Source: a virus. From it: a stretch of DNA of 64,000 nt. This document shows, in pieces, positions 20,339-62,467 of this stretch. The translations under genes and the position numbers were made by a program. Location of the stretch: positions 124,001 to 188,000 of IMG/VR virus record IMGVR_UViG_3300008113_000003. The stretch is one strand, 5' to 3'. Each line of letters starts with the position of its first letter. The first letter of the stretch is position 1. Under the pieces are notes generated by a model. The model had not been told where the DNA came from and searched no databases. It worked only from the letters and a program-made list of their open reading frames with translations.

Positions 20339-20587
20339 TTATCTTCTTCCAGCTTTCGCTTTATTCATCTCTCTTTCTCTTGCTTCTTTTATTTTTTCGT
20401 TTTCTTCCATCAAGATATCAATAAATTTCCTTCTCTCAAAAACTGGCATAACCATTACGTCTGAATAAGTAAAATTAGCATGCTTAACCAATATGTACGA
20501 TTCGTACATCATTTGGTTTCTATACTCATACGTAAGGCCAAAGAAATTTGGCTGTAATAGGAAGTTCACCAAAAAAAAACTCTCCAC
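20339..20587 (-). CDS. +1-frame extension of the gp26-family protein, probably made by frameshifting or slippage
   Basis: An 82-codon frame overlaps the last ~60 bases of the upstream gene in the +1 frame. Its formal first codon (GTG at 20587) is unlikely to be a start, because it lies inside the upstream gene beside a run of nine Ts (20571-20579). Shifting +1 (or -2) in that run would join residue ~237 of the upstream protein to this frame and give a ~314-residue fusion. The segment FFGLTYEYRNQMMYESYILV, then FTYSDVMVMPVFERRKFIDIL, reads as a genuine conserved helical domain of the kind found in phage tail-assembly chaperone extensions. Independent translation from internal ATG codons (MMYES) is the alternative. 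Confidence 0.6.
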   Translation of the reverse strand: MESFFLVNFLLQPNFFGLTYEYRNQMMYESYILVKHANFTYSDVMVMPVFERRKFIDILMEENEKIKEAREREMNKAKAGRR

Positions 20588-21284
20588 TTGGAGCTTCTAC
20601 ATTAATGGTCAAATCAAGACCTGGTTCGTTATCTGATAAGTGCTTCCTAAATTCAGCAGAATCCATTGGTGACATAGTGTCAATGAACTGGGCAATTGCA
20701 GCCTTTTCTCTAATACCATCAACTTCAGTGATTTGACTTTGTAATCTAAGTGTCATCAATTGGCTAATAGCGTTTGAACCCATCTTTTTGGTTCTTGCCT
20801 GATCCTCTTTAACCAATTTATCATCCTCATCAGATGTCAAATATCTAAACTTAACTGTTTTCTTACACTTTGGTAGTGTAAATGAACATTCACCGTTTTC
20901 ATCTGGTTGTAAACTATTTTCTTTTGTTGGTAATTGACTAATATCAATATCCTCGATAAATTTTTCCCCTGTTTTAGGGTCTGTTAATTCCACTGGGTAA
21001 ATTTCACCATAACCTGTGGCTCTCAAAAAGAAGATAATAGCGTTTCTATCACCTGGTAATAATTGTCCAGCTTTGATATCTTTATCTAAAATCTTTTTTT
21101 CCAATAAAATATCTAACACCTTACCACTTTGCAATAAGTTTGGTGATGTCAAAATGTTTTCATCAGCAGCGGTCATATACGCAACCTTAATGGTGTCTTT
21201 TTTATTTTTGTAAAATTTACCACCTGAAGGTAAACCAATTACGTCATGTGCTGGTTCAAAGTAAACTTGTTGTCCGTTATCCAT
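20526..21284 (-). CDS. Baseplate hub assembly protein, gp26/T4_baseplate family
   Basis: This 252-residue protein opens with the signature of the T4 gp26/gp51 family: DVIGLPSGGKFYKNKKDTIKV, then MTAADENILTSPNL, then a helix KVLDILLEKKI. Members act as chaperones or assembly factors for the baseplate hub. Charged helices follow and the C-terminus is short and hydrophobic. Near the 3' end it reads through GAG followed by nine Ts, where the frame may shift into the overlapping downstream ORF. It lies downstream of the tube gene, across the oppositely oriented nuclease gene, and has an A-rich leader (aaataaataagaaat) before ATG. Confidence 0.8.
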   Translation of the reverse strand: MDNGQQVYFEPAHDVIGLPSGGKFYKNKKDTIKVAYMTAADENILTSPNLLQSGKVLDILLEKKILDKDIKAGQLLPGDRNAIIFFLRATGYGEIYPVELTDPKTGEKFIEDIDISQLPTKENSLQPDENGECSFTLPKCKKTVKFRYLTSDEDDKLVKEDQARTKKMGSNAISQLMTLRLQSQITEVDGIREKAAIAQFIDTMSPMDSAEFRKHLSDNEPGLDLTINVEAPSGEFFFGELPITAKFLWPYV

Positions 21285-22644: not shown

Positions 22645-25600
22645 TTATATGTTATCGAATGATACGTTTTGTGGAGTTACTGTAAATTCAAGTTCAATGA
22701 ATTCCAAAGTAGGTGTTGGTTTGATAAAGATTTTACCTTTTAAAGTATTTCTATCGTTATCTTCAACGTCCATTGCAACGCTAACTCTAAAGTCTGTTAA
22801 ACCTCTTTCTTTTCTGATGTTATCCAAGATTGGGTTAACCAAAGACAAGAATTGATTTCTAACTGTGGTATCATTTGGATCGAATAATAATCTCTTAGAT
22901 ACACTCATGATCAATCTTCTCGCTTGTAACAACAATCTTCTGATGTTCAATCTATCAAGAGCACTTGATTTAACCTGCAAGTTTCTGTTACCCCAGATAA
23001 CAACCCCAACGTCTGAATAAGTCGCTAATGGGTTAATTCTACCTGGATATAAAATATCTCTTGCTTCTTGGTCAAGAACTATACGAGCTCTATTACATTT
23101 AACTAAACCTCTATTGTAACCAGCAGTTGCAAACCAAGGGAACGCTACGTTATCTGTATAAGCCATATTTCTTACTACCTCAGCAGTAGGTGGGATATAC
23201 AAGTTTGCGTTATTGTCTGTATCTGTGATTTGTATCCAAGGATAGTAAACCGCAGTGTAGTTAGAATCGATGTCAGTGTTTTCTAATTCATCAACGATAT
23301 CTTCAGCAAAATACCAGTTTTCAGTATCTGATGGGTTGTTGTTGTTTAACAACTTGATATCAGGTAATGTTGGTAAATAAATCGCATCCAATCTCTTTTC
23401 TTCAACAACTTCAATAGCGTCTCTAACCAAATCAGTGTTGTTTAACACGTCAATACCAGGAGTTGCCAAGATGTTGATAGCGGTTTCTTCTGGGTTTTGG
23501 AATGTTCTGATACCGTACATTGTTGCATAGTAGTCAGAAGTACCGAATAACTCAGCGTACTCAACATTTGTAAATGTATCGAATGTACCAGCTACGAAAC
23601 CAGTTCTACCGATTTTGTACTCATCTGTGTTTGTTCTGTTAACTCTATAAGCATCCCAACCATCAAAACCACCAGCAAATAAAGCTGTGAATTTTCTTGT
23701 TCTCATGTTATTATAAGGGTGAGTTGTTGTTCCGTCAACCACAATTGGGTCAACAAATGAAGCAACACCAACCGCAAAAACTTGTTCTCCAGTAACAGAG
23801 TCAACAATGGTACTAGCATTGATATCCATGTGGAAACCTTTTGTTTTTGTTGTATAATCATCACCAGTATTGTAGGCGTTGTCACCTAAGATACTAATTT
23901 TACCTTTAAACAATAATAGGTCTTTATCAAATCCAAATTGGCTTGAGAAACCTAAATAGTTTTTAGTTACTCTATCACCACTAGAAACTGTAGCATTAGC
24001 AAATGGTGGGTTGTAAATTGTGTCACCAGGTGCATAATATTTCAATTTGTAAGGCATTTCAGGAACAGCTGTTGCTGTGTAACCACTAGCACTATTTGTT
24101 CTAAATTCGTAACCTTCAAAACCAGCTGGTACACCATCAGTTGGTGCGTTTACAGCCATTTCAAGAACAACATAAGCGCTCTTTAATGGGTATTTGTTAT
24201 CAATTGTACCTATTTTTCTACCAACGAAATTGTCTAATGACTCATCCATCGTACAATCAACAAATTTTTCAATTATTGATACAGCTCTATCTGTGTCGCT
24301 AAATGATCTGATGTAGATATCAAAAGTTTTCTTAGATAAATCAACATTAGCGATTGAAGCTTTGATTTCAGTGTTAGCACTTGTACCGTCAGAAATTGAA
24401 ATTAATCTGAATAATCTTTGTGGTAAACCACCTCTTAACTCAGATACAAAGAAAGGTGTTACTGGTGATTGATATTGGAATCTATAGTGATCCCAGTTAT
24501 TAACAGATGTTAATTCACTGTATAAACCTTTAATTTTACCACTTAACCAACCAAATTTCAGAGAGTTATCATAAACTTCCTCAACATAGATTTGAGAATC
24601 TTTGTCAGATGGTGTAGTACCGATTACTTTTTTGATATAGTTAGATTTTGTGCTATCTAAAGAAACTGTATAAGAGAATGTACCGCCAGTTGGGTTTGCT
24701 GTTGTACCAGTTAAATCAAAAGCTAAATATGGGTCGTTAACAACACCTGTTGGAGCGACCATATCTAATGAATTAACTTTATAACCTAACACATCTGAAG
24801 TGTAAGTACCTCTACTTCTAACGGTTGCAACGTTTTTGTTGTGACCTTCAGCGAAAGGATCAGCTGTTAACGTAACAGTGAACAATTCTAATTTACCGTT
24901 AAGTGTGTGAGCACCAGCACCTGTAAATGTATGGCAATATAAAGCAAATGATGGTCCACTGTATGTCTCGGTAGCGGTATTGTACGCTAACTCATTATTT
25001 AAAATATAAGCGTCTCTATCACTTGTTGGAACTGTGAACGGTAATTCATATGCGTCAATATAAACTGGGGTTATACCATGTGTAGCCGCATCAACCGTTA
25101 AATCAGTATCCATATCGTCAGTCAAAAGACCCCAATATAAAGCGTTTCCGTTATAGAAATCAGCATTAATGTAACTACCAACAGTTGTAAAGAATTGGTT
25201 AAACACGGTGTCAAAGTCAGTTGTAGCAACACCAGTTAAGTTAGCGATATAATCAATAAGATCGGTGTTACCAGAGTTACCAGTAACATAAAAACTATTG
25301 TTATTCGTGTCAACTTTAAAATTAATGGTTGTTTGTGTAATACCAGTGTGTGATAATGTTGATTCATCACATGCACCTAATGTTTTAATAACCCAAGCCA
25401 TACCAGCATCATAGCCAGATAATCCTAAAAGTCTTGTAACATACAATTGGTTTGATTGTGTTAAATACTGTTTTGCTATGTATGGTAATTCATACTTAAC
25501 AATTTGTGTATTTTTAAATTTTTCTGGATTAGTACCACCAAAAGTAGTCTTAAATTCATCAAAATTTCTGATGAATATTGGTTGGAACGCTGGACCCTTT

Positions 25601-25710
25601 AAGGTTTCACCCACTACACCTAATGTTGTAACACCAACTGTCTCAGTTGTGAATGTTAAATCTTTTTCGGTTGTGTAGACACCTGGAGATGCATAAACTT
25701 TGTTTGCCAT
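22645..25710 (-). CDS. Contractile tail sheath protein, gp18-like (1021 aa)
   Basis: The first 30 residues (YASPGVYTTEKDLTFTTETV) and the last ~170 carry the sheath core pattern: PGRINPLATYSDVGVVIWGN, then LDRLNIRRLLLQARRLIMSV, then RLLFDPNDTTVRNQF, and a final strand pair EFTVTP. The sheath contracts to drive the tube through the cell envelope. At 1021 residues it is much longer than T4 gp18 (659), and the extra length is in the middle, where surface domains are usually inserted. It ends at a strong terminator and its leader has a late-type motif and the A-rich block aaattaaataaat. Confidence 0.93.
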   Translation of the reverse strand: MANKVYASPGVYTTEKDLTFTTETVGVTTLGVVGETLKGPAFQPIFIRNFDEFKTTFGGTNPEKFKNTQIVKYELPYIAKQYLTQSNQLYVTRLLGLSGYDAGMAWVIKTLGACDESTLSHTGITQTTINFKVDTNNNSFYVTGNSGNTDLIDYIANLTGVATTDFDTVFNQFFTTVGSYINADFYNGNALYWGLLTDDMDTDLTVDAATHGITPVYIDAYELPFTVPTSDRDAYILNNELAYNTATETYSGPSFALYCHTFTGAGAHTLNGKLELFTVTLTADPFAEGHNKNVATVRSRGTYTSDVLGYKVNSLDMVAPTGVVNDPYLAFDLTGTTANPTGGTFSYTVSLDSTKSNYIKKVIGTTPSDKDSQIYVEEVYDNSLKFGWLSGKIKGLYSELTSVNNWDHYRFQYQSPVTPFFVSELRGGLPQRLFRLISISDGTSANTEIKASIANVDLSKKTFDIYIRSFSDTDRAVSIIEKFVDCTMDESLDNFVGRKIGTIDNKYPLKSAYVVLEMAVNAPTDGVPAGFEGYEFRTNSASGYTATAVPEMPYKLKYYAPGDTIYNPPFANATVSSGDRVTKNYLGFSSQFGFDKDLLLFKGKISILGDNAYNTGDDYTTKTKGFHMDINASTIVDSVTGEQVFAVGVASFVDPIVVDGTTTHPYNNMRTRKFTALFAGGFDGWDAYRVNRTNTDEYKIGRTGFVAGTFDTFTNVEYAELFGTSDYYATMYGIRTFQNPEETAINILATPGIDVLNNTDLVRDAIEVVEEKRLDAIYLPTLPDIKLLNNNNPSDTENWYFAEDIVDELENTDIDSNYTAVYYPWIQITDTDNNANLYIPPTAEVVRNMAYTDNVAFPWFATAGYNRGLVKCNRARIVLDQEARDILYPGRINPLATYSDVGVVIWGNRNLQVKSSALDRLNIRRLLLQARRLIMSVSKRLLFDPNDTTVRNQFLSLVNPILDNIRKERGLTDFRVSVAMDVEDNDRNTLKGKIFIKPTPTLEFIELEFTVTPQNVSFDNI

Positions 25711-30199: not shown

Positions 30200-31291
30200 A
30201 TGAGAATAAATCCAACCGAAAAGCAAAAAATATACAAACAAGCCAAACATAGGCTTGGGGCTCCTATTAGGAAGATTCAATTAGAAGATGAACAAATGGA
30301 CTCACTTCTTGAAATCGCTACAGAAGATTATGTTGAGTTTATTAATAATTGGTTGATTGAACACCAATGGCCGAGTTTGATTGGTTTAAGCGTTAGCGAA
30401 GCTGATTTAACCAGGGCTTTTATTTATAGAACTTTTGATTTAGTCACACAATACACATACTCCTACTCAAAAATTGTTGGTTTGGGTGCTGGTGAGGGTG
30501 GTTATGTTCTTAAAAAAGATTACGTTGAGTTAGTTAAGGGTCAACAAATATATGAGATTCCAGCAAATAGAGAGATAAATGAAGTGTTATGGTTTACACC
30601 AGCTTCATTGGATCAATCTGTAATCGACCCATTCTTAGGTGTTTGGAACAATCAATTCGGTGCCGAATATATGGGTTTGGGTAGTTATTACATTTTACCA
30701 GCTTTTGACATTTTAATGAGAACAACGGATAGAAACCTTAAAAATAGGATGATTCGTTCTGAGTTAATATATAAGATCACAAATGCGCCTGATGGCAAAA
30801 AATATCTTCATTTAATGAATACGCCAGGTGGTAAATTTGACTTTAGGGGTTCAATGCTAGATCAAGGTAAATGTTGGTATTGGTATTATGATATTAACCC
30901 ATTAATTAAAGATGATTGTTTGGCAAAAAACAAAGATATCATTAAATCACCAGCTGATGTTCCTCTGGATGATATATCATTTGATGACCTAAATGATCCA
31001 GCTAAAGTTTGGATTAGAAGATATTTTATTGCTTTGTGTAAAGAAACTTTGGGTAGAGTAAGAGGTACTTTTGGTGGTAAAATACCAGTTCCAGACGCAA
31101 ATATGGAAATTGAATACCAGTCACTTTTATCAGAAGGTAAGGATGAAATGGTTACACTTAAAAAAGAATTAGAGGACAGAATGTTCAAATTAAACCCATT
31201 GGAAATTCTTAAAAGAATGTCTACTGAGGCTGAAGAAATTAACAAAGCTCTTAAATACAGAGCGTTCCAAAAACCAATTAAGATTATATAA
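30200..31291 (+). CDS. Virion structural protein, possibly neck or head-tail connector (363 aa)
   Basis: The start was set at ATG 30200 (MRINPTEKQKIYKQ), after the divergent promoter; the longer frame from 30143 reads back through it. The N-terminus (HRLGAPIRKIQLEDEQMDSLLEIATEDY) is a two-helix pattern common in phage head-tail connectors, and aromatic beta segments follow (LKKDYVELVKGQQIYEIPANREINEVLWFTP). It ends with a helix of alternating charges. It shares a one-base stop/start overlap (TAATG) with the next structural gene. I recognise the style of a structural protein of Bacteroidetes phages but not a T4 counterpart. Confidence 0.6.
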   Translation: MRINPTEKQKIYKQAKHRLGAPIRKIQLEDEQMDSLLEIATEDYVEFINNWLIEHQWPSLIGLSVSEADLTRAFIYRTFDLVTQYTYSYSKIVGLGAGEGGYVLKKDYVELVKGQQIYEIPANREINEVLWFTPASLDQSVIDPFLGVWNNQFGAEYMGLGSYYILPAFDILMRTTDRNLKNRMIRSELIYKITNAPDGKKYLHLMNTPGGKFDFRGSMLDQGKCWYWYYDINPLIKDDCLAKNKDIIKSPADVPLDDISFDDLNDPAKVWIRRYFIALCKETLGRVRGTFGGKIPVPDANMEIEYQSLLSEGKDEMVTLKKELEDRMFKLNPLEILKRMSTEAEEINKALKYRAFQKPIKII

Positions 31292-32946
31292 TGTTTTATA
31301 CAGCCCTAGATAATAGTGATTATTTTGATTTAATTGTCACAAAAGATTGTCGTGATTTTTATCGTGATTATAACGAATGTAATTTAATAAATATTAATAT
31401 TACTGAAAATCTATGCTCAATACCTGGGAGTATTCAAACAGAAGAAGTTGAATTAAAAAACATAACGTTAACAGGTTATGATAATTTTTTTATACCCAAC
31501 GGAGAGATATCAAATATCAATAATTTCACGGGTGACACAATAGGATACACTGTGAATGAAAATATTGTTGTTGACGTTAATAAAGATTTAACATATGTTA
31601 TTGAAACTGGTGATACTTTTTGTTTTCATGAAATATCTGGTTATAGCGGAAATTACTGTTATGAGATTGATCACCTAAATGTTGACAATGGTATATACTA
31701 TAATAAATTAAATGGCGGTTTTTACCAGGGATTCTACAAAATTTTTGGTGAAAATGTTGAGTGGTTCCCAGCTAGAGCAAAAATGGGTTGGACCGTTGAT
31801 ATGGTTGTCCATTTCCCAATGGATGTACCAGGTAGTTCAGGGTCATCTGGTAGTTCAGGGTCTTCTGGATCATCTGGCAGTTCTGGTTCTTTTGGGTCTT
31901 CTGGATCATCAGGTAGTTCTGGGTCATCTGGTAGTTCAGGGTCTTCTGGATCATCTGGTAATTGCGTAACTCTAAATAAAGTATATCCAAATAATAGCGG
32001 TTTTATTTTTTATCTGGGGACAAGAGCTGAAAATAAATTTGCTGATAAAACTGATATTGAAATTCAAAGATTTGAGGATAATTACGACATAGTACCTCTA
32101 AACACAACAAATTTATTTACCTATAATAACCTAATAACATTAAATGGTTTAACGAATTATATTGGTTATTTTAATTATTATAATGGTTTAATGTATACTG
32201 GTAGAAATTATACAGTAGACTCACAACCTTTACAATACCACCAAGAATATAGTGATCTCACGTATAATGCGTTTGGTATAAGAGTCACCAATGATGGTAG
32301 AATCGGTTACAGAACAATATACCCAACTGATATATGTTATACAGGCGTAACCCAAGAAGTTAGTGGTATAACAAACAACTCGTTTATTATGGACCCAATT
32401 GATGACTGTGTTAATTATACAAGATCACTAATTGTTACAAAATATTTTACAATAGAGGAGTGTTATACAAAAAACCCTGTTATTGATGTAACGGAAAATA
32501 AATTCTTGAATATAACTGGTGTATTTGAAAGAGATTTTTCTTATGGGAATAACTGTCAGTTAAAATATGGTGATTATAAAAAAGGTACCTTCTCAATATA
32601 CCTTAATGGGTTCTTAGTTTTTAGGAATAGGAATTTTGTTGAGGTGATACCACATGAATTAGATATTGATTCGAAATACCAGGAAGGTGTCCCCTTTAAT
32701 ATTTCATTTGGTGGTGGGACCCAAAGCTTAATCGACCCTGTGGTATTTGATGAAAACAAAGTACTTGGTACTGTTTTAGAAAGATTTTTTGCTGGAACAT
32801 TCCTAGGTGGTGTTAAATCAATTAAAATGTATTGTGTACCATTGTACACTGTTGAGGTTAAAAAAGAATTTAGAAATATTGCGGGTATATATAATTTGCC
32901 GATAATAAAGGGTGGTAGACAGATATTTATAAAAAATTTATTCTAA
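31291..32946 (+). CDS. Virion structural protein with a Gly-Ser-Ser repeat linker (551 aa)
   Basis: A beta-rich N-terminal part (1-180) ends in GWTVDMVVHFPMD. A low-complexity stretch of SGS/GSS triplets (about 181-223) follows, then the chain resumes with a FIFYLGTRAENKFAD segment and more beta-rich sequence. The two flanks look like two halves of one domain separated by a flexible loop. There are no enzyme motifs or membrane segments. It overlaps the upstream gene by one base and the downstream gene by one base, so the three are one unit. A tail or head surface protein is the likeliest role. Confidence 0.6.
   Translation: MFYTALDNSDYFDLIVTKDCRDFYRDYNECNLININITENLCSIPGSIQTEEVELKNITLTGYDNFFIPNGEISNINNFTGDTIGYTVNENIVVDVNKDLTYVIETGDTFCFHEISGYSGNYCYEIDHLNVDNGIYYNKLNGGFYQGFYKIFGENVEWFPARAKMGWTVDMVVHFPMDVPGSSGSSGSSGSSGSSGSSGSFGSSGSSGSSGSSGSSGSSGSSGNCVTLNKVYPNNSGFIFYLGTRAENKFADKTDIEIQRFEDNYDIVPLNTTNLFTYNNLITLNGLTNYIGYFNYYNGLMYTGRNYTVDSQPLQYHQEYSDLTYNAFGIRVTNDGRIGYRTIYPTDICYTGVTQEVSGITNNSFIMDPIDDCVNYTRSLIVTKYFTIEECYTKNPVIDVTENKFLNITGVFERDFSYGNNCQLKYGDYKKGTFSIYLNGFLVFRNRNFVEVIPHELDIDSKYQEGVPFNISFGGGTQSLIDPVVFDENKVLGTVLERFFAGTFLGGVKSIKMYCVPLYTVEVKKEFRNIAGIYNLPIIKGGRQIFIKNLF
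31830..31962 (+). repeat. Tandem short repeat encoding (GSS)n
   Basis: About 15 units of the 9-base type ggttcatct / gggtcttct / ggtagttca encode a Gly-Ser-Ser tract, with one Phe interruption (GSFGSS). The copy number is likely to vary between relatives by slippage. Confidence 0.85.
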
Positions 32947-33393: not shown

Positions 33394-36300
33394 ATGATTA
33401 TGGCCGAATACAAGATTTCCCTTGAAGAGATAGAAAAGTTTTTAAATGGGCACGATGATGAGAAATACATCGTGAATGTTGAGTACGATGCCGAAACTAA
33501 TCTGATCCATAAAGTTAAACAAGATCCAGAAAGGGGTAATTATATTGAAACCGAACCATTACTCGCTTTCATGTGGATTAAAAACCTTAATAAAATTAAG
33601 GAACTAACCAATTTTTACGGTAATAGTGATGCCAAAATTAAGTCCGCTAGACAAAGATTTGGTATTGAAATCAAAGCTTTAGGTGGTGACCACCCAAAGT
33701 TAATTGACGGTTATAGGTATTTGGTTACATGTAATCAGGGTCACAAAAGAATGTTAGATTTTTTTAGAGAGGGTGGTATTTTTGTTTACGACAAAAGACA
33801 TGATATTAACACTCATTTCTTAATGATATCACCTGTCGAGCAGTATTTTATACATACTGGTAAGCGTTTGTTTAAGGGATTTGAAGAATACGATGAGATT
33901 CACAAATTTATATTTGACTTAGAGACAACAGGGTTAGACCCAGCCATCAATCGTATTTTCTTGATTGGTATCTACACCAATTTAGGCGTTAGAGAAATCA
34001 TACCCGTTGAAGATGATGATGAATCTGAAAGACAAGCCATTACAAAATTCTTTGAGAAAATTAATGAGATTAAACCAACCATCATTGCTGGTTATAATAG
34101 TGCAAACTTTGACTGGCCATTCTTCTTTAAAAGATGTGAAATTCTTGGTTTAAATATTCAGGATATCGCAATTACCTTAAAAGTTGGTGAATTAATCAAC
34201 AACAAAGATAGTATTTTAAAGCTGGGTAACGAGGTTGAGGACTACACCCAAACTAATATGTTTGGTTATAGCGTTATCGATATCATACACTCAGCTAGAC
34301 GTGCACAAGCAATTGATTCAAGCATGAAATCGGTTGGTTTGAAATATGTTTGTAAGTATAACAAGATTGCAAAAAAGAATCGTGTTTATATTGTTGGTGA
34401 TAAAATTGGTAACACATGGTACTCAAAAGATAAATTTTATTTTGATGATAGAACAGGTGCCTACTCTAAAACAAAACCAGCTTTGGAGTTCATGGATTAC
34501 ATTCGTAGAGAAGATGTTCAGGCTAACCCAGATAAAGTGTTTGTTTTTGGTGATAATATTTTAAGACAAGGACTTGGCGGTCAGGCAAAAGAAATGCGTG
34601 GAGAACCGAATGTCATTGGTATCGTAACCAAGCACACCCCAGAATCAACACCAGAATCTTATTTCAATGATAAGGATTTTGAAATACTTAAAAAACACAT
34701 AGATTCCGATATTAATCAAATAATCGAAAAGATTAAAGAAGGTAAGACAATCGTTTTCCCTAAAATGGGTATCGGTACAGGTTTGGCTCAGTTAGATATG
34801 AGAGCCCCAAAAACATTCAAGTATCTAAAGGGTTTATTAAGTGCGTTACGTGATTACATTAATACTTTTCAAGAAGTTGATGGTAGATATATCGTTGAGC
34901 GTTACTTGATTGATGACTTATGGGAAACTATGGAAGTGGACGATGTTTATAACCAGTCATCGTTCTTGTTAGCTAAATTAGTACCAACAACATATCAAAG
35001 GGTTTCTACCATGGGTACAGCTGGTCTATGGAAATTATTGATGATGACGTATTCATTTGAAAATGATTTGGCAATACCAGTATCGGATGTTAAAAGAGAT
35101 TACACAGGTGGTTTATCAAGATTATTTAAAGTTGGTTATTCAACCACTTTAAGAAAGATGGACTACAACTCACTTTACCCAGCTATTCAGTTGGCCCATG
35201 ATGTATTCCCAAGTGTTGATGTTAACGGTGCGATGAAATCGATGTTAAAGTATTTCCACACCGAACGTTTTAAAGCTAAAAACTTAGCCAGCAAATACAA
35301 AAAAGAAGGTAATTACCAATTGGCTGACAAATATAAACGTAAACAATTACCACTTAAGATCTTTATTAACTCGATGTTCGGTGCCCTTGGTGCACCTATG
35401 GCTTTCCAATGGGCTGAAATTGATGTCAGTGAACGTATTACTTGTACGGCAAGACAATACTTAAGATTAATGGTTACATTCTTCCTTAAACGTGGGTACA
35501 CGCCTTTAGTACTTGATACGGATGGTGTTAACTTCATGGCACCAAAGAACGGTGAGCCATTTACCTATATCGGTAAGGGTTTAAATGATGAGGTTGAAGC
35601 TGGTAAAGAATATACTGGTGTTAAAGCTGTGGTAGCTGAATTTAATGACACCTATATGCGTGGTGAGATGGGTCTTGGTTTAGATGGTATTTGGCCAGCG
35701 ACAATTAACTTATCTAGGAAAAATTACGCTTTACTAGAAGATGACGGGTCAATTAGTTTAACTGGTAACAGTATCAAATCAAAAGCTATGCCCGTTTACA
35801 TTGAAGAGTTTTTGGGTAAGGGTATGAAAATGTTATTGAATGGTCATGGCTATGAGTTTGTACAATATTACTACGAATACGCTGAGAAAGTGTGTAATAG
35901 AGAAATACCTTTAGCTAAGATTGCCACAAAAGCTAGGGTTAAGAAGTCGATAAATGCTTATATAAATCGTGGTGGTGATAAAAATGGTAAGCAGTTGGCA
36001 AAACAAGCTCACATGGAGTTGGCAATAAAACATAATCTTGATGTTAATCTTGGTGATACAATTTATTATGTTAATAATGGTAAAACAAAATCACATGGTG
36101 ATGCCCAAGAAAATAAGGATGGGGAAATGTATGCAACATTGGTACCAAATGAAATTATTGAAAACCAACCAGATTATATTGGTGAATACAATGTACCTAA
36201 ATATTTAGAAGCCTTAAATAAAAAGGTTGAACCTTTATTAGTTGCGTTTCCACTTGAAGTTAGAGATAAAATTTTAATTAAAAAATCTGGCGAAAGAACA

Positions 36301-36498
36301 ATGTTCTTAAGATCTGAGTTAGATTTGGTAAACGACCAACCTACAGATATTGAAGACCAAGACACTTTAGAAGAATTTTTTACCCCATCTCAAATGGAAA
36401 AAGAATTCTGGGCTAAAATGAATTATGAATCAGATTATTGGTTTTCAGATAAAATAACTTTCAAAATACCTGGTTTAGACGAAGAATTTACGGTATAG
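33394..36498 (+). CDS. Family B DNA polymerase with an inserted extra domain (1034 aa)
   Basis: The proofreading exonuclease is intact: Exo I FDLETTG (Asp175, Glu177), Exo II NSANFDW (Asp240) and Exo III YLIDDLWETMEVD (about 504-516). The polymerase has motif A MDYNSLYP (Asp590), motif B K-x3-NSMFG (Lys655) and motif C VLDTDGVNF (Asp708, Asp710), where the usual Ser after DTD is Gly. Between Exo II and Exo III, residues about 362-490 are an extra module with VFVFGDNILRQGLGGQAKEM and FPKMGIGTGLAQL, not part of any polymerase. It is the phage replicative polymerase, driven by its own host-type promoter. ATG 33400 is an alternative start. Confidence 0.93.
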   Translation: MIMAEYKISLEEIEKFLNGHDDEKYIVNVEYDAETNLIHKVKQDPERGNYIETEPLLAFMWIKNLNKIKELTNFYGNSDAKIKSARQRFGIEIKALGGDHPKLIDGYRYLVTCNQGHKRMLDFFREGGIFVYDKRHDINTHFLMISPVEQYFIHTGKRLFKGFEEYDEIHKFIFDLETTGLDPAINRIFLIGIYTNLGVREIIPVEDDDESERQAITKFFEKINEIKPTIIAGYNSANFDWPFFFKRCEILGLNIQDIAITLKVGELINNKDSILKLGNEVEDYTQTNMFGYSVIDIIHSARRAQAIDSSMKSVGLKYVCKYNKIAKKNRVYIVGDKIGNTWYSKDKFYFDDRTGAYSKTKPALEFMDYIRREDVQANPDKVFVFGDNILRQGLGGQAKEMRGEPNVIGIVTKHTPESTPESYFNDKDFEILKKHIDSDINQIIEKIKEGKTIVFPKMGIGTGLAQLDMRAPKTFKYLKGLLSALRDYINTFQEVDGRYIVERYLIDDLWETMEVDDVYNQSSFLLAKLVPTTYQRVSTMGTAGLWKLLMMTYSFENDLAIPVSDVKRDYTGGLSRLFKVGYSTTLRKMDYNSLYPAIQLAHDVFPSVDVNGAMKSMLKYFHTERFKAKNLASKYKKEGNYQLADKYKRKQLPLKIFINSMFGALGAPMAFQWAEIDVSERITCTARQYLRLMVTFFLKRGYTPLVLDTDGVNFMAPKNGEPFTYIGKGLNDEVEAGKEYTGVKAVVAEFNDTYMRGEMGLGLDGIWPATINLSRKNYALLEDDGSISLTGNSIKSKAMPVYIEEFLGKGMKMLLNGHGYEFVQYYYEYAEKVCNREIPLAKIATKARVKKSINAYINRGGDKNGKQLAKQAHMELAIKHNLDVNLGDTIYYVNNGKTKSHGDAQENKDGEMYATLVPNEIIENQPDYIGEYNVPKYLEALNKKVEPLLVAFPLEVRDKILIKKSGERTMFLRSELDLVNDQPTDIEDQDTLEEFFTPSQMEKEFWAKMNYESDYWFSDKITFKIPGLDEEFTV

Positions 36499-58540: not shown

Positions 58541-60349
58541 TTGGCAAAACAAATTACCGATAAAAAAGAATTACTTTTAGAGTTCGCAAAATGTTCTCAA
58601 GACCCTTGCTATGTCATAGAAAGTTATTTTGAAACTTTTGATAAGACTAGAGAGGGTTATGTACCTTTCGAACTTTTTGATGGTCAAAAAAAGCTTGTTT
58701 CCAATTATAGAAAACATAGGTTTAACCTAGTTCTAAAATATCGCCAGGCTGGTATCTCAACAGTAACAGCGGCATATTCTGCTGTACTTACAGCTTTTGC
58801 TAGCCCAGATCGACCTGAAAAAGTTTTGATCTTAGCAAACAAGCAGGAAACAGCAATTGAATTCCAAAACAAAATCATTAACTTTATTAAACAATTACCT
58901 GACTGGGTAAATGTTTCGTTTGATAAATCATCACAAAAACACGTTAGATTATCTAACGGTTCAGAAATTAAAGCCGTTGCAACATCACAAGATGCTTTGC
59001 GTGGTTATACACCTACTGTCCTATTAATTGATGAGGCTGCCTTCGTTGAAGGTGGACAAGAACTATGGACAGCGTGTTTGGCTTCAATTGGTACTGGTGG
59101 TAAAGCTGTATTAATTTCAACACCTAACGGTTTAGATCCTATCTACTACGCCTCATATGAAGGTGCTATTAAAGGTGATAATAGTTTCTGTGTAACACAC
59201 TTAAAATGGTGGCAAGATCCACGATTCAACAAAGATTTACGTTTAATTAAAACTAAAGATATTGTAGACTGGATTCAAAAACCAAATACAGAAAAACACG
59301 AAGAGGTTGTTGAATCTGTAATCGATCTACACCCTGATGTTATAGCTAAATTTATTAGCGATGGCTATAAACCACACTCTACATGGTATGAAAACATGTG
59401 TAGAGACATGAACTTTAACAAACGTATGATCAACCAGGAGTTGGAATGTGCGTTTATTGGTTCTGGTGATAACGTTATTGAGGGTGAGGTAATTAGAAAA
59501 CAAGAACAAGAGAATGTTATTGACCCAATTGTTAAAGACAAAGCTTGGGATAGTAATTTATGGATATGGAAACTACCTGAAAAGGGTCATAGGTATATCT
59601 TAGCACTTGACGTATCTCGTGGTGACTCTGAGGATGCCACTGGTATGTGTATTATTGATTATGATACATTCGAACAGGTTTTAGAGTATCATGGTAAAGT
59701 TCCACCAGACGTTGCAGCGCTAATAGTTGATCAGTATGGAAGAATGTACGATGCGTTATCAACTTTTGATATCACTGGTGGTATGGGCATAGCGTCAACA
59801 CAAAAACTTAAAGAACTAGGGTTCCCTAAAAAACTATTACACTATGATAATGATGGTGATAGTAACAGCATGTATTACATGCCAGATGAAAATGCTATAC
59901 CAGGTATAAATTTTGCGTCTAAAAATAGAAGAAGTCAAATTGTGGCGGCTTTAGAAGAAGCTGTTGCTAGAGGTGGCTTTAAAATACGTAGCGAAAGATT
60001 GACAGCTGAGCTAAAAAAATTCGTTTATAAAAACGGTAAACCAGACCACATGAAGGGCTCACATGATGACCTTATCATGGCTCTTGGTATGTGTTTGTTT
60101 GTTGCCAATACATCATTTAAAAGATTACAAGAATCTGATAATATGACTAGGGCTATGTTAGATAGTTGGAAAATAACAACTAGTAACACAAAAACAGATG
60201 CAGACTATTTATTAAAAGACGTGACTAGTTCACCAAATCCAGATAAATCATATTATAATTCGGATGAATTTGCCACCAATAATAATATGATGAACACAAA
60301 AGAATTTGGTTGGCTATTTGGCGTAACTAAACCTAAACCTAATAATTAA
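58541..60349 (+). CDS. Terminase large subunit, gp17-like
   Basis: The DNA-packaging motor carries an N-terminal ATPase: Walker A-like KYRQAGIST (66-74), Walker B LLIDEAAF (Asp164, Glu165), and the coupling SVS-type ISTPNG. The C-terminal nuclease has ALDVSRGDSEDATG (Asp357), then SHDDLIMALGM (Asp509, Asp510). Length (602) is close to T4 gp17 (610). The likely start is TTG at 58541, giving AKQITDKKELL; the upstream in-frame codons lie in a short gap and ATG 58525 is out of frame. It packages the genome into preformed heads through the portal encoded next. Confidence 0.95.
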   Translation: MAKQITDKKELLLEFAKCSQDPCYVIESYFETFDKTREGYVPFELFDGQKKLVSNYRKHRFNLVLKYRQAGISTVTAAYSAVLTAFASPDRPEKVLILANKQETAIEFQNKIINFIKQLPDWVNVSFDKSSQKHVRLSNGSEIKAVATSQDALRGYTPTVLLIDEAAFVEGGQELWTACLASIGTGGKAVLISTPNGLDPIYYASYEGAIKGDNSFCVTHLKWWQDPRFNKDLRLIKTKDIVDWIQKPNTEKHEEVVESVIDLHPDVIAKFISDGYKPHSTWYENMCRDMNFNKRMINQELECAFIGSGDNVIEGEVIRKQEQENVIDPIVKDKAWDSNLWIWKLPEKGHRYILALDVSRGDSEDATGMCIIDYDTFEQVLEYHGKVPPDVAALIVDQYGRMYDALSTFDITGGMGIASTQKLKELGFPKKLLHYDNDGDSNSMYYMPDENAIPGINFASKNRRSQIVAALEEAVARGGFKIRSERLTAELKKFVYKNGKPDHMKGSHDDLIMALGMCLFVANTSFKRLQESDNMTRAMLDSWKITTSNTKTDADYLLKDVTSSPNPDKSYYNSDEFATNNNMMNTKEFGWLFGVTKPKPNN

Positions 60350-60364
60350 AAACAATTAAACAAA

Positions 60365-60604
60365 ATGGCAAACATAATTAAACAAGGTAGAAGCACTGGT
60401 CCTGGATCAACATCAATCGTTAGAGGTATTGACCCAAAAAATTTAGATAAAAGAGATGGTAGAGCGTTGCAAAGAAATGTTGACGCTATCAAATGTTCTA
60501 TAGAATCTGATGGTACAACAACTTATGTGCAAAAAAAAGAATGGGATGAAGCTGTAGAAAACTACAAGTTTCCACCATATGTAGAATGTGAATACGTAAA
60601 TTAA
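60365..60604 (+). CDS. Small unknown protein between terminase and portal (79 aa)
   Basis: A 79-residue protein. N-terminal GRSTGPGSTSIVRGIDPKN, a basic segment RDGRALQRNVDAIKCSI, and a C-terminal WDEAVENYKFPPYVECEYVN. Spacing of 15 and 6 bases shows it is a real member of the packaging operon. No family recognised; an assembly factor or terminase partner is possible. Confidence 0.6.
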   Translation: MANIIKQGRSTGPGSTSIVRGIDPKNLDKRDGRALQRNVDAIKCSIESDGTTTYVQKKEWDEAVENYKFPPYVECEYVN

Positions 60605-60610
60605 AAATAT

Positions 60611-62467
60611 ATGGCAGATAATAGATTAACAATATTCCAAAGGTTAAATAAGGTTCTTGGCAATGAAGTCGATGGGCCAAAATATGTCATTGACCCTAGT
60701 TCGTTTAATGGGTTAAGTGGTGACGATTTGGAACAAAAAAAGTTAGAGGCGCAACAAACGCTATATCTACAAAATCAATGGAAAAAAATTGATAATGAGC
60801 TTTATCAAAAAGCTGTTTATTACGAACCAACAAGAATTGCATCGTATTATGATTACGAAGCTATGGAATATACGCCAGAAATTTCTGTTGCATTGGATAT
60901 TTTTGCTGAAGAGGCTACAACAGCAAATGAAAACGGTAAAGTTTTAACAATTTATTCTGATAGTACCAGAATAAAAAAAGAATTAACAGATTTATTTGAA
61001 AATGTGTTAGATATTAACGCTAACCTAACATCTTGGGCTAGAAACGTATGTAAATATGGTGATAACTTTGTTTACAACAAGATTGTACCTAACCAAGGTA
61101 TCGTGGGTGTTACCCAATTACCAAATATTGAAATGACAAGATCTGAACCTGGTTTTTCAAAGATTACCAGTTTAGATGATCAACAAAAAGAAAAGAACAT
61201 TAAGTTTTTCTGGAAAGATAAAAACGTTGAATTTAATTCATTTGAAATTTCTCACTTTAGATTACTTGGTGATGATAGAAGATTACCTTACGGTACATCA
61301 ATGCTTGAAAAAGTAAGAAGAATTTGGAAACAATTGTTGTTATCTGAAGATGCGATGTTAGTTTATCGTGTTACCAGAGCACCAGAAAGACGTGTTTACA
61401 AAGTATTCGTTGGTAACATGGATGATAAAGATGTTGATGCTTATGTTGACAAAATCGCAAATAACTTTAAAAGAGTTAATATGGTTGATAAGAGCAACGG
61501 ACAACAAGACACACGTTATAACGCACTAGCTGTTGACCAAGACTACTTTATACCTGTTAGAGACCCAAGCCTTGCAATGCCAATTGAAACGCTTCCTGGG
61601 GCTCAAAACCTATCAGAAATAGCCGATATCGAATATATCCAAAAGAAAATGCTTGCCGCACTTAGAGTACCTAAAGCTTTTATTGGTTTTGAAGAAACTA
61701 CTGGTGACGGTAAAAACTTGGCCATTCTTGATGTTCGTTTTGCAAGAGCGGTACATAGGATACAAAAAGCTCTTATCCAAGAGTTAAATAAAATGGCTAT
61801 TATCCATTTATACACCAAAGGATTTACTGATGATTTGGAAAACTTTACATTAACGTTAACAAGCCCATCAACACAGGCTGAAATGCTTAAGATCCAAAAC
61901 TGGAAAGAGAAAGTTACTTTATATCGTGATGCGGTTTCTGACGCTGGTAACGGATTCTCAGCTATGTCAATGACTTATGCTAAGAAAGAAATCTTAAATA
62001 TGAGCGATGATGAGATTAAACTTGATATCCAAAGACAAGCTGTTGAAAAAGCTGGTGGTGAGGAAATTAAAGCTCTTGGTGAAACGATTAAACAAACTGG
62101 TATATTCAGAGACATTTATAAGATTTATAAAATTGACCCTAACAACATGACGCTTGGTGCTTCTGGAACTGGTAGTGATATGGGTGCTGCTGGTGGTGGC
62201 GGTGGTGGTAGTATGTCTGACATGGGTGGTGGTGATACCGCTGGTGGAACCGATTTTACAGCACCATTGGAAGTTCCTGGGGCTGAAGCTGGAGCTGAAA
62301 TACCTGGTCCTGAAACAGGTGGTGAAACACCCGAAGCTGGAGCTGAAATACCTGGTACTGAGGAACCTTTGGCTGAAATAACCAAAAGAAAATTAGAGGC
62401 TAAAAATAGATTAATCAACGAAGCTCTTAAAAAAACAATTGACGAAATTGATGATTTATTAGTATAA
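60611..62467 (+). CDS. Portal protein, gp20-like
   Basis: A 618-residue portal with the family landmarks: YYEPTRIASYYDYEAMEYTPE and ALDIFAEEATTANENGK near the N-terminus, LTSWARNVCKYGDNFVYN in the core, ISHFRLLGDDRRLPYGTSML, then VTRAPERRVYKVFVGNM and MLAALRVPKAFIGFEET. The portal ring is the entrance for DNA and the base for the neck. The last ~110 residues are a Gly-rich and Ala/Glu/Pro-rich tail with an internal repeat (GAEIPG) followed by a charged helix. It follows terminase and a small gene on one strand. Confidence 0.95.
   Translation: MADNRLTIFQRLNKVLGNEVDGPKYVIDPSSFNGLSGDDLEQKKLEAQQTLYLQNQWKKIDNELYQKAVYYEPTRIASYYDYEAMEYTPEISVALDIFAEEATTANENGKVLTIYSDSTRIKKELTDLFENVLDINANLTSWARNVCKYGDNFVYNKIVPNQGIVGVTQLPNIEMTRSEPGFSKITSLDDQQKEKNIKFFWKDKNVEFNSFEISHFRLLGDDRRLPYGTSMLEKVRRIWKQLLLSEDAMLVYRVTRAPERRVYKVFVGNMDDKDVDAYVDKIANNFKRVNMVDKSNGQQDTRYNALAVDQDYFIPVRDPSLAMPIETLPGAQNLSEIADIEYIQKKMLAALRVPKAFIGFEETTGDGKNLAILDVRFARAVHRIQKALIQELNKMAIIHLYTKGFTDDLENFTLTLTSPSTQAEMLKIQNWKEKVTLYRDAVSDAGNGFSAMSMTYAKKEILNMSDDEIKLDIQRQAVEKAGGEEIKALGETIKQTGIFRDIYKIYKIDPNNMTLGASGTGSDMGAAGGGGGGSMSDMGGGDTAGGTDFTAPLEVPGAEAGAEIPGPETGGETPEAGAEIPGTEEPLAEITKRKLEAKNRLINEALKKTIDEIDDLLV

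Follow-up and report, generated by a model that had tools for sequence, protein, structure and literature searches.

The window analysed here comprises 64,000 nt, positions 124,001-188,000 of IMG/VR record IMGVR_UViG_3300008113_000003 (206 kb). The phage is a large, T4-like, contractile-tailed virus of bacteria, since the window carries T4-type structural genes (baseplate protein, tail sheath, terminase and portal genes at 20526-21284, 22645-25710 and 58541-62467). The subject of this analysis is a family B DNA polymerase gene with an additional domain embedded in its reading frame (Table 1). A second ATG at 33400 is a possible alternative to the start at 33394. A Pfam scan of the polymerase found DNA_pol_B_exo1 (residues 210-318), RNase_H_2 and DNA_pol_B (612-693), and the presence of Exo I-III, motifs A and C and the PolB fold identifies the protein as a member of family B. 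The catalytic residues of all five motifs are kept, and do not vary across 38 aligned relatives. The protein encoded by a separate gene at 31291-32946 has two parts joined by a low-complexity linker, a long Ser/Gly repeat (SGSSGSSG...).

Table 1. Features of the polymerase gene, in window coordinates; residue numbers are those of the polymerase.
Feature	Position (nt)	Strand	Basis or remark
Family B DNA polymerase ORF, DUF7831 domain embedded	33394..36498	+	1034 aa, single open frame
Exo I, FIFDLETTGL, D175/E177	33907..33936	+	sequence; D175 and E177 invariant across relatives' alignment
Exo II, GYNSANFDW, D240	34090..34116	+	sequence; N235, F239 and D240 invariant across relatives' alignment
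Inserted segment, residues ~356-496	34459..34881	+	short loop at this site in sister polymerases
DUF7831 (PF25176) domain, residues 365-479	34486..34830	+	Pfam match; predicted fold
Conserved motif 1, FGDN-x4-G-x-GGQAKEMRGEPN, residues 385-406	34546..34611	+	family conservation
Conserved motif 2, Thr-Lys (T412 K413)	34627..34632	+	family conservation
Conserved motif 3, PKMGIGTGLAQL, residues 456-467	34759..34794	+	family conservation
Exo III, Y504LIDD508, right behind insert	34903..34917	+	sequence and relatives' alignment
Polymerase motif A, DYNSLYP	35161..35181	+	sequence and relatives' alignment
Polymerase motif C, DTDG	35515..35526	+	sequence and relatives' alignment

A preliminary description of this DNA had placed an extra domain at residues 362-490 (nt 34477-34863), between Exo II and Exo III, within an otherwise normal exonuclease. 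Both observations held: Exo I (FDLETTG), Exo II (GYNSANFDW) and Exo III (Y504LIDD508) are as described, and comparison with insert-free relatives extended the limits of the insert a little further on either side (Table 1). Between the exonuclease and polymerase matches, Pfam detected PF25176 (DUF7831) with an E-value of 2.6e-44; a score of 150 bits against a cut-off of 27, and coverage of model positions 2-116 of 118, assign the segment to this family. PHROG 2072, a function-unknown family, covers the same stretch of the polymerase. The Pfam scan found no Hint family, and the insert consists of DUF7831 plus short flanks; an intein, already discounted in the preliminary description, was rejected.

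The same description had proposed that a free-standing family was captured inside the exonuclease, and had looked to a profile search and a structure prediction for support, with a segment that cannot fold separately or that is native to the exonuclease of close relatives as the contrary outcomes. The profile search matched a stand-alone family, and the insert is predicted to fold independently: modelled in isolation with AlphaFold2 from an alignment of 108 family members, it reached a pLDDT of 92.2 and a pTM of 0.85. A model of the full polymerase (pLDDT 87, pTM 0.76) showed the elements of the insert much as in the isolated model, and its top fold matches were archaeal family B polymerases over ~1000 alignment columns. 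No solved structure resembled the isolated insert at E<=0.001. Matches to Rossmann-like, P-loop and tyrosine-phosphatase structures, with TM-scores of at most 0.42, were rejected as too weak, and a sequence search of the PDB found no relative of the insert, returning triosephosphate isomerase noise only.

Among IMG/VR relatives, polymerases that share 62-100% identity with the window protein carry a segment of 146-147 residues at the insert site, and at about 42-56% identity a 23-43-residue loop takes its place wherever the region is complete (two rows of the comparison start within or behind the insert region). The insert is therefore found throughout the window subclade but is absent from sister polymerases at ~50% identity, so it is a derived insertion and not a native part of the exonuclease. 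In a tree calculated with the insert columns left out, a branch with a support of 100 separates the insert-bearing polymerases from the others. The outer branches of this tree lack the insert, so that gain is the economical reading, and on the tree the insert reconstructs as gained once. Likewise, polymerase-borne DUF7831 domains form one clade, with a support of 100, in a tree of 113 DUF7831 sequences. Among the records of insert-free relatives, many of which are fragments, DUF7831 occurred anywhere in 0 of 22 tested, and these 22 records of sister phages yielded no stand-alone donor copy; 13 insert-bearing records, many of them again fragments, hold exactly one DUF7831 copy, that of the polymerase. 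We regard it as nearly certain that a complete DUF7831 domain was acquired once, in the polymerase linker just before Exo III. Other irregularities were seen among the relatives: in L028 and L029, which are insert-free, the polymerase gene is broken near the DTDG motif by an intein-like sequence; L027 carries a much longer polymerase ORF; and the ORF of an insert-bearing polymerase in L207 (4429-6819) ends early at 773 aa, possibly through an intein, a frameshift or a split gene.

As a stand-alone gene of ~120-160 aa, DUF7831 is present in many phages (Caulobacter, Rhizobium, Roseobacter-group and cyanobacterial) and, among bacteria, in some genomes and elements of Acidobacteria, Methylobacterium and others, a distribution that, with the single capture, bears out the proposed origin from a free-standing family. 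It was also found in giant viruses, on the basis of a fold match, and as a part of giant phage-type proteins ~2400-3100 aa long. One of these (L081/L084, 155-8326) is an N4-type virion RNA polymerase with DUF7831 at residues 1285-1398; the others are encoded in L070, L071, L103, L108 and L156, and the evidence for a virion RNA polymerase concerns L081/L084 only among the giant carriers. In the L071 protein, a cpYpsA SLOG domain lies directly upstream of DUF7831. The giant carriers have little else in common, so their fusions look separate. The literature searched, which mostly lay outside subscription journals, contained no mention of DUF7831; its function and apparently this fusion are thus undescribed.

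The genes surrounding stand-alone copies of DUF7831 provide clues to its role. NadM-type (cytidylyltransferase-like plus Nudix) and NadV (NAMPT) genes lie near DUF7831 in L061, L075, L062 and L110, in L090 and L128 its immediate neighbour is a Nudix gene, and SLOG genes are nearby in L056, L063, L067, L096 and L049, at a distance of ~5 bp downstream in L067. At least one NadM, NadV, Nudix or SLOG neighbour was found at 13 of 68 viral DUF7831 loci. Two control sets, insert-free polymerase loci and DarG-type viral loci (the latter with shorter flanks), gave 0 of 54 and 1 of 80 (Fisher p ~3e-4 and ~2e-4, respectively, values that are optimistic because L061, L062 and L110 are related, as are L090 and L091). 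SLOG, Nudix and Nad genes are parts of a viral NAD+/ADP-ribose conflict network (PMC9503650), and such neighbours lend circumstantial support to a link between DUF7831 and NAD or ADP-ribose. A search of the window phage record for three families, Macro, NADAR and NadV, found none of them, so the NAD link rests on the stand-alone relatives. A search for DarT in 42 bacterial genomes with DUF7831 found it in just 2 of them, and co-occurrence of the two is not supported. The suggestion in the preliminary description that the insert ties nucleotide or ADP-ribose chemistry to replication thus stood in part: the neighbours and the giant SLOG-DUF7831 protein favour it circumstantially, but hhalign, Pfam Macro, fold and PDB sequence searches gave no significant homology to a known ADP-ribose enzyme.

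Two further arrangements were noted at stand-alone loci. A compact phage cluster in L096 (3561-5448) has two cytidylyltransferase-like genes around DUF7831, with SLOG ~2 bp away. An acidobacterial element combines DUF7831, single-strand-binding-like, RNase H-like and SLOG genes, the last ~1 kb upstream of DUF7831, with a gene for a function-unknown protein of ~550 aa; it is present in L132, L137, L139-L144, L147, L152 and similar loci, sometimes in several copies per genome.

DarT of the DarTG system ADP-ribosylates phage ssDNA, which may block the phage polymerase, and mutations in phage polymerases allow escape from DarTG (PMC11481870, PMC11348598). The mechanism we prefer, with a probability of roughly 35%, is that the insert is a counter-defence module whose targets are adducts or derivatives of ADP-ribose at the fork where phage DNA is replicated. 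Within the phage NAD+/ADP-ribose counter-defence network, DUF7831 would bind or hydrolyse small molecules, and its fusion to the polymerase would put it at the fork, where it might process ADP-ribose-type adducts that DarT-like ADP-ribosyltransferase defences leave on the template or replisome; alternatively, its substrate there might be NAD-derived products nearby. The N4-type virion RNA polymerase, a second template-reading polymerase with DUF7831, was counted in favour of this mechanism. In a bolder version, which we consider quite unlikely, the embedded domain would be an eraser: while the phage replicates, it would strip the template DNA, or the polymerase itself, of ADP-ribose or a similar NAD-derived adduct and so make the fork resistant to ADP-ribosylating defences, and the N4-type virion RNA polymerase would carry the same device for early transcription.

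Conservation of the family signature bears on the main rival, a doubtful but serious one, in which the insert is a chemistry-free structural or protein-interaction module that stabilises the exonuclease or contacts DNA, the clamp or the helicase. Residues conserved in the family include FGDN, GxGGQA, MRGEPN, TK and PxxGxGTG, and the signature was defined from 101 non-polymerase DUF7831 members as the 32 positions at which at least 85% of them agree. In the window copy 30 of the 32 are retained, so that it qualifies as a family member by its residues as well; outer polymerase clades keep 28-30, the L008/L020 inserts 28, and the L107 insert, classed as intact, 29 by position. A purely structural role would not need such retention, seen in the window and outer clades over deep divergence, and from its intact signature we read the window insert as functional. 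It is under purifying selection and constrained about as tightly as the remaining enzyme: in pairwise Nei-Gojobori comparisons of the window with near relatives, dN/dS was 0.04-0.07 for the insert and 0.03-0.06 for the remainder, values that are approximate because several dS estimates are near saturation. Between the window group and L008/L020, dN of the insert was ~4x that of the remaining polymerase.

A related subclade (L009-L015, L017 and L018) is what makes the structural rival serious, as it retains the domain with a degraded signature. Just 20-23 of the 32 positions are left in the L009-like and the L013/L014/L015/L018 inserts, with GDN, GGQ and GxGTG altered, so that 9-12 family-conserved residues are changed, many of them in the GDN, GGQ and GTG motifs. 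The insert is nonetheless retained; its length does not vary, and purifying selection still acts on it, with dN/dS of 0.07-0.09 among L013, L014 and L018, at ~2x the evolutionary rate of the remaining enzyme. Its chemistry has probably been lost or changed in this subclade, in one or two losses, and would thus not be essential there. Under the counter-defence mechanism, the domain would have been kept in these phages as part of the enzyme after a probable loss of activity.

The neighbourhood data fit equally well with an unlikely alternative, that DUF7831 acts on soluble NAD-derived molecules such as immune signals or breakdown products, and that the polymerase is a carrier ensuring early and abundant expression. 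The neighbours of stand-alone copies (NadV, NadM, Nudix and SLOG) are soluble-NAD genes, giant proteins that may be delivered with the virion contain DUF7831, and phage ADPr domains have been argued to act mostly on soluble derivatives (PMC9503650). A position inside the exonuclease would, however, be odd for a mere carrier, as a stand-alone gene would suffice.

It is improbable that DUF7831 is a true macro domain of the DarG/TARG1 type, a smaller version of this DNA ADP-ribosyl glycohydrolase. On visual inspection, the motifs of DUF7831 (N..GxA, TK, P..GxG) follow an order resembling that of DarG, and hhalign placed TK and P..G in comparable register when DUF7831 was aligned with 86 DarG-type macro domains from bacteria and phages. 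The resulting score of 22.65 (E=0.005) nevertheless lies within the range of column-shuffled decoys, which reached 24.84, and MacroD-type macro domains gave E=0.7. None of the 108 DUF7831 members had a Pfam Macro match, and no macro structure was present among the 50 listed of 335 weak fold matches; a macro-domain relationship is thus not supported, and we do not claim membership in that family. There is practically no chance that the insert is an artefact of chimeric assembly or a misread intein, since the same architecture recurs in more than 20 contigs from many metagenomes at 62-100% protein identity, with a constant region of 146-147 aa, open frames and no Hint domain.

Both component families are known; what is new is their combination, its single origin, the decay of the signature in one subclade and the neighbourhood evidence. 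The window copy is the same domain end to end as the stand-alone PF25176/PHROG 2072 proteins, with which it shares 30 of 32 conserved residues, but these are usually encoded by a separate gene of ~120-160 aa whereas the window copy sits inside a DNA polymerase. That polymerase shares its motifs and overall fold with family B replicative enzymes, both archaeal (Pfu/KOD-type) and of insert-free sister phages (L209-L262), and differs from them in the extra ~140-residue domain before Exo III. The N4-type virion RNA polymerase and other giant phage proteins likewise hold DUF7831 inside a large phage protein, although they are unrelated to the window polymerase and represent separate fusions. With the macro domain of the DarG antitoxin we propose a functional analogy only, the handling of ADP-ribose near phage DNA replication, as the comparisons yielded no significant relationship between the two in sequence or fold.

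Through the fusion, a widespread but uncharacterised phage family becomes linked with the replication fork, and its stand-alone relatives connect it with NAD/ADP-ribose genes; the subclade with degraded motifs offers a natural control for inserts with an intact signature. The presence of DUF7831 inside the polymerase suggests that the replication machinery itself carries a counter-defence activity. If this is true, such a polymerase would answer DarTG in another way than by escape mutations, bringing along a counter-defence domain of its own.
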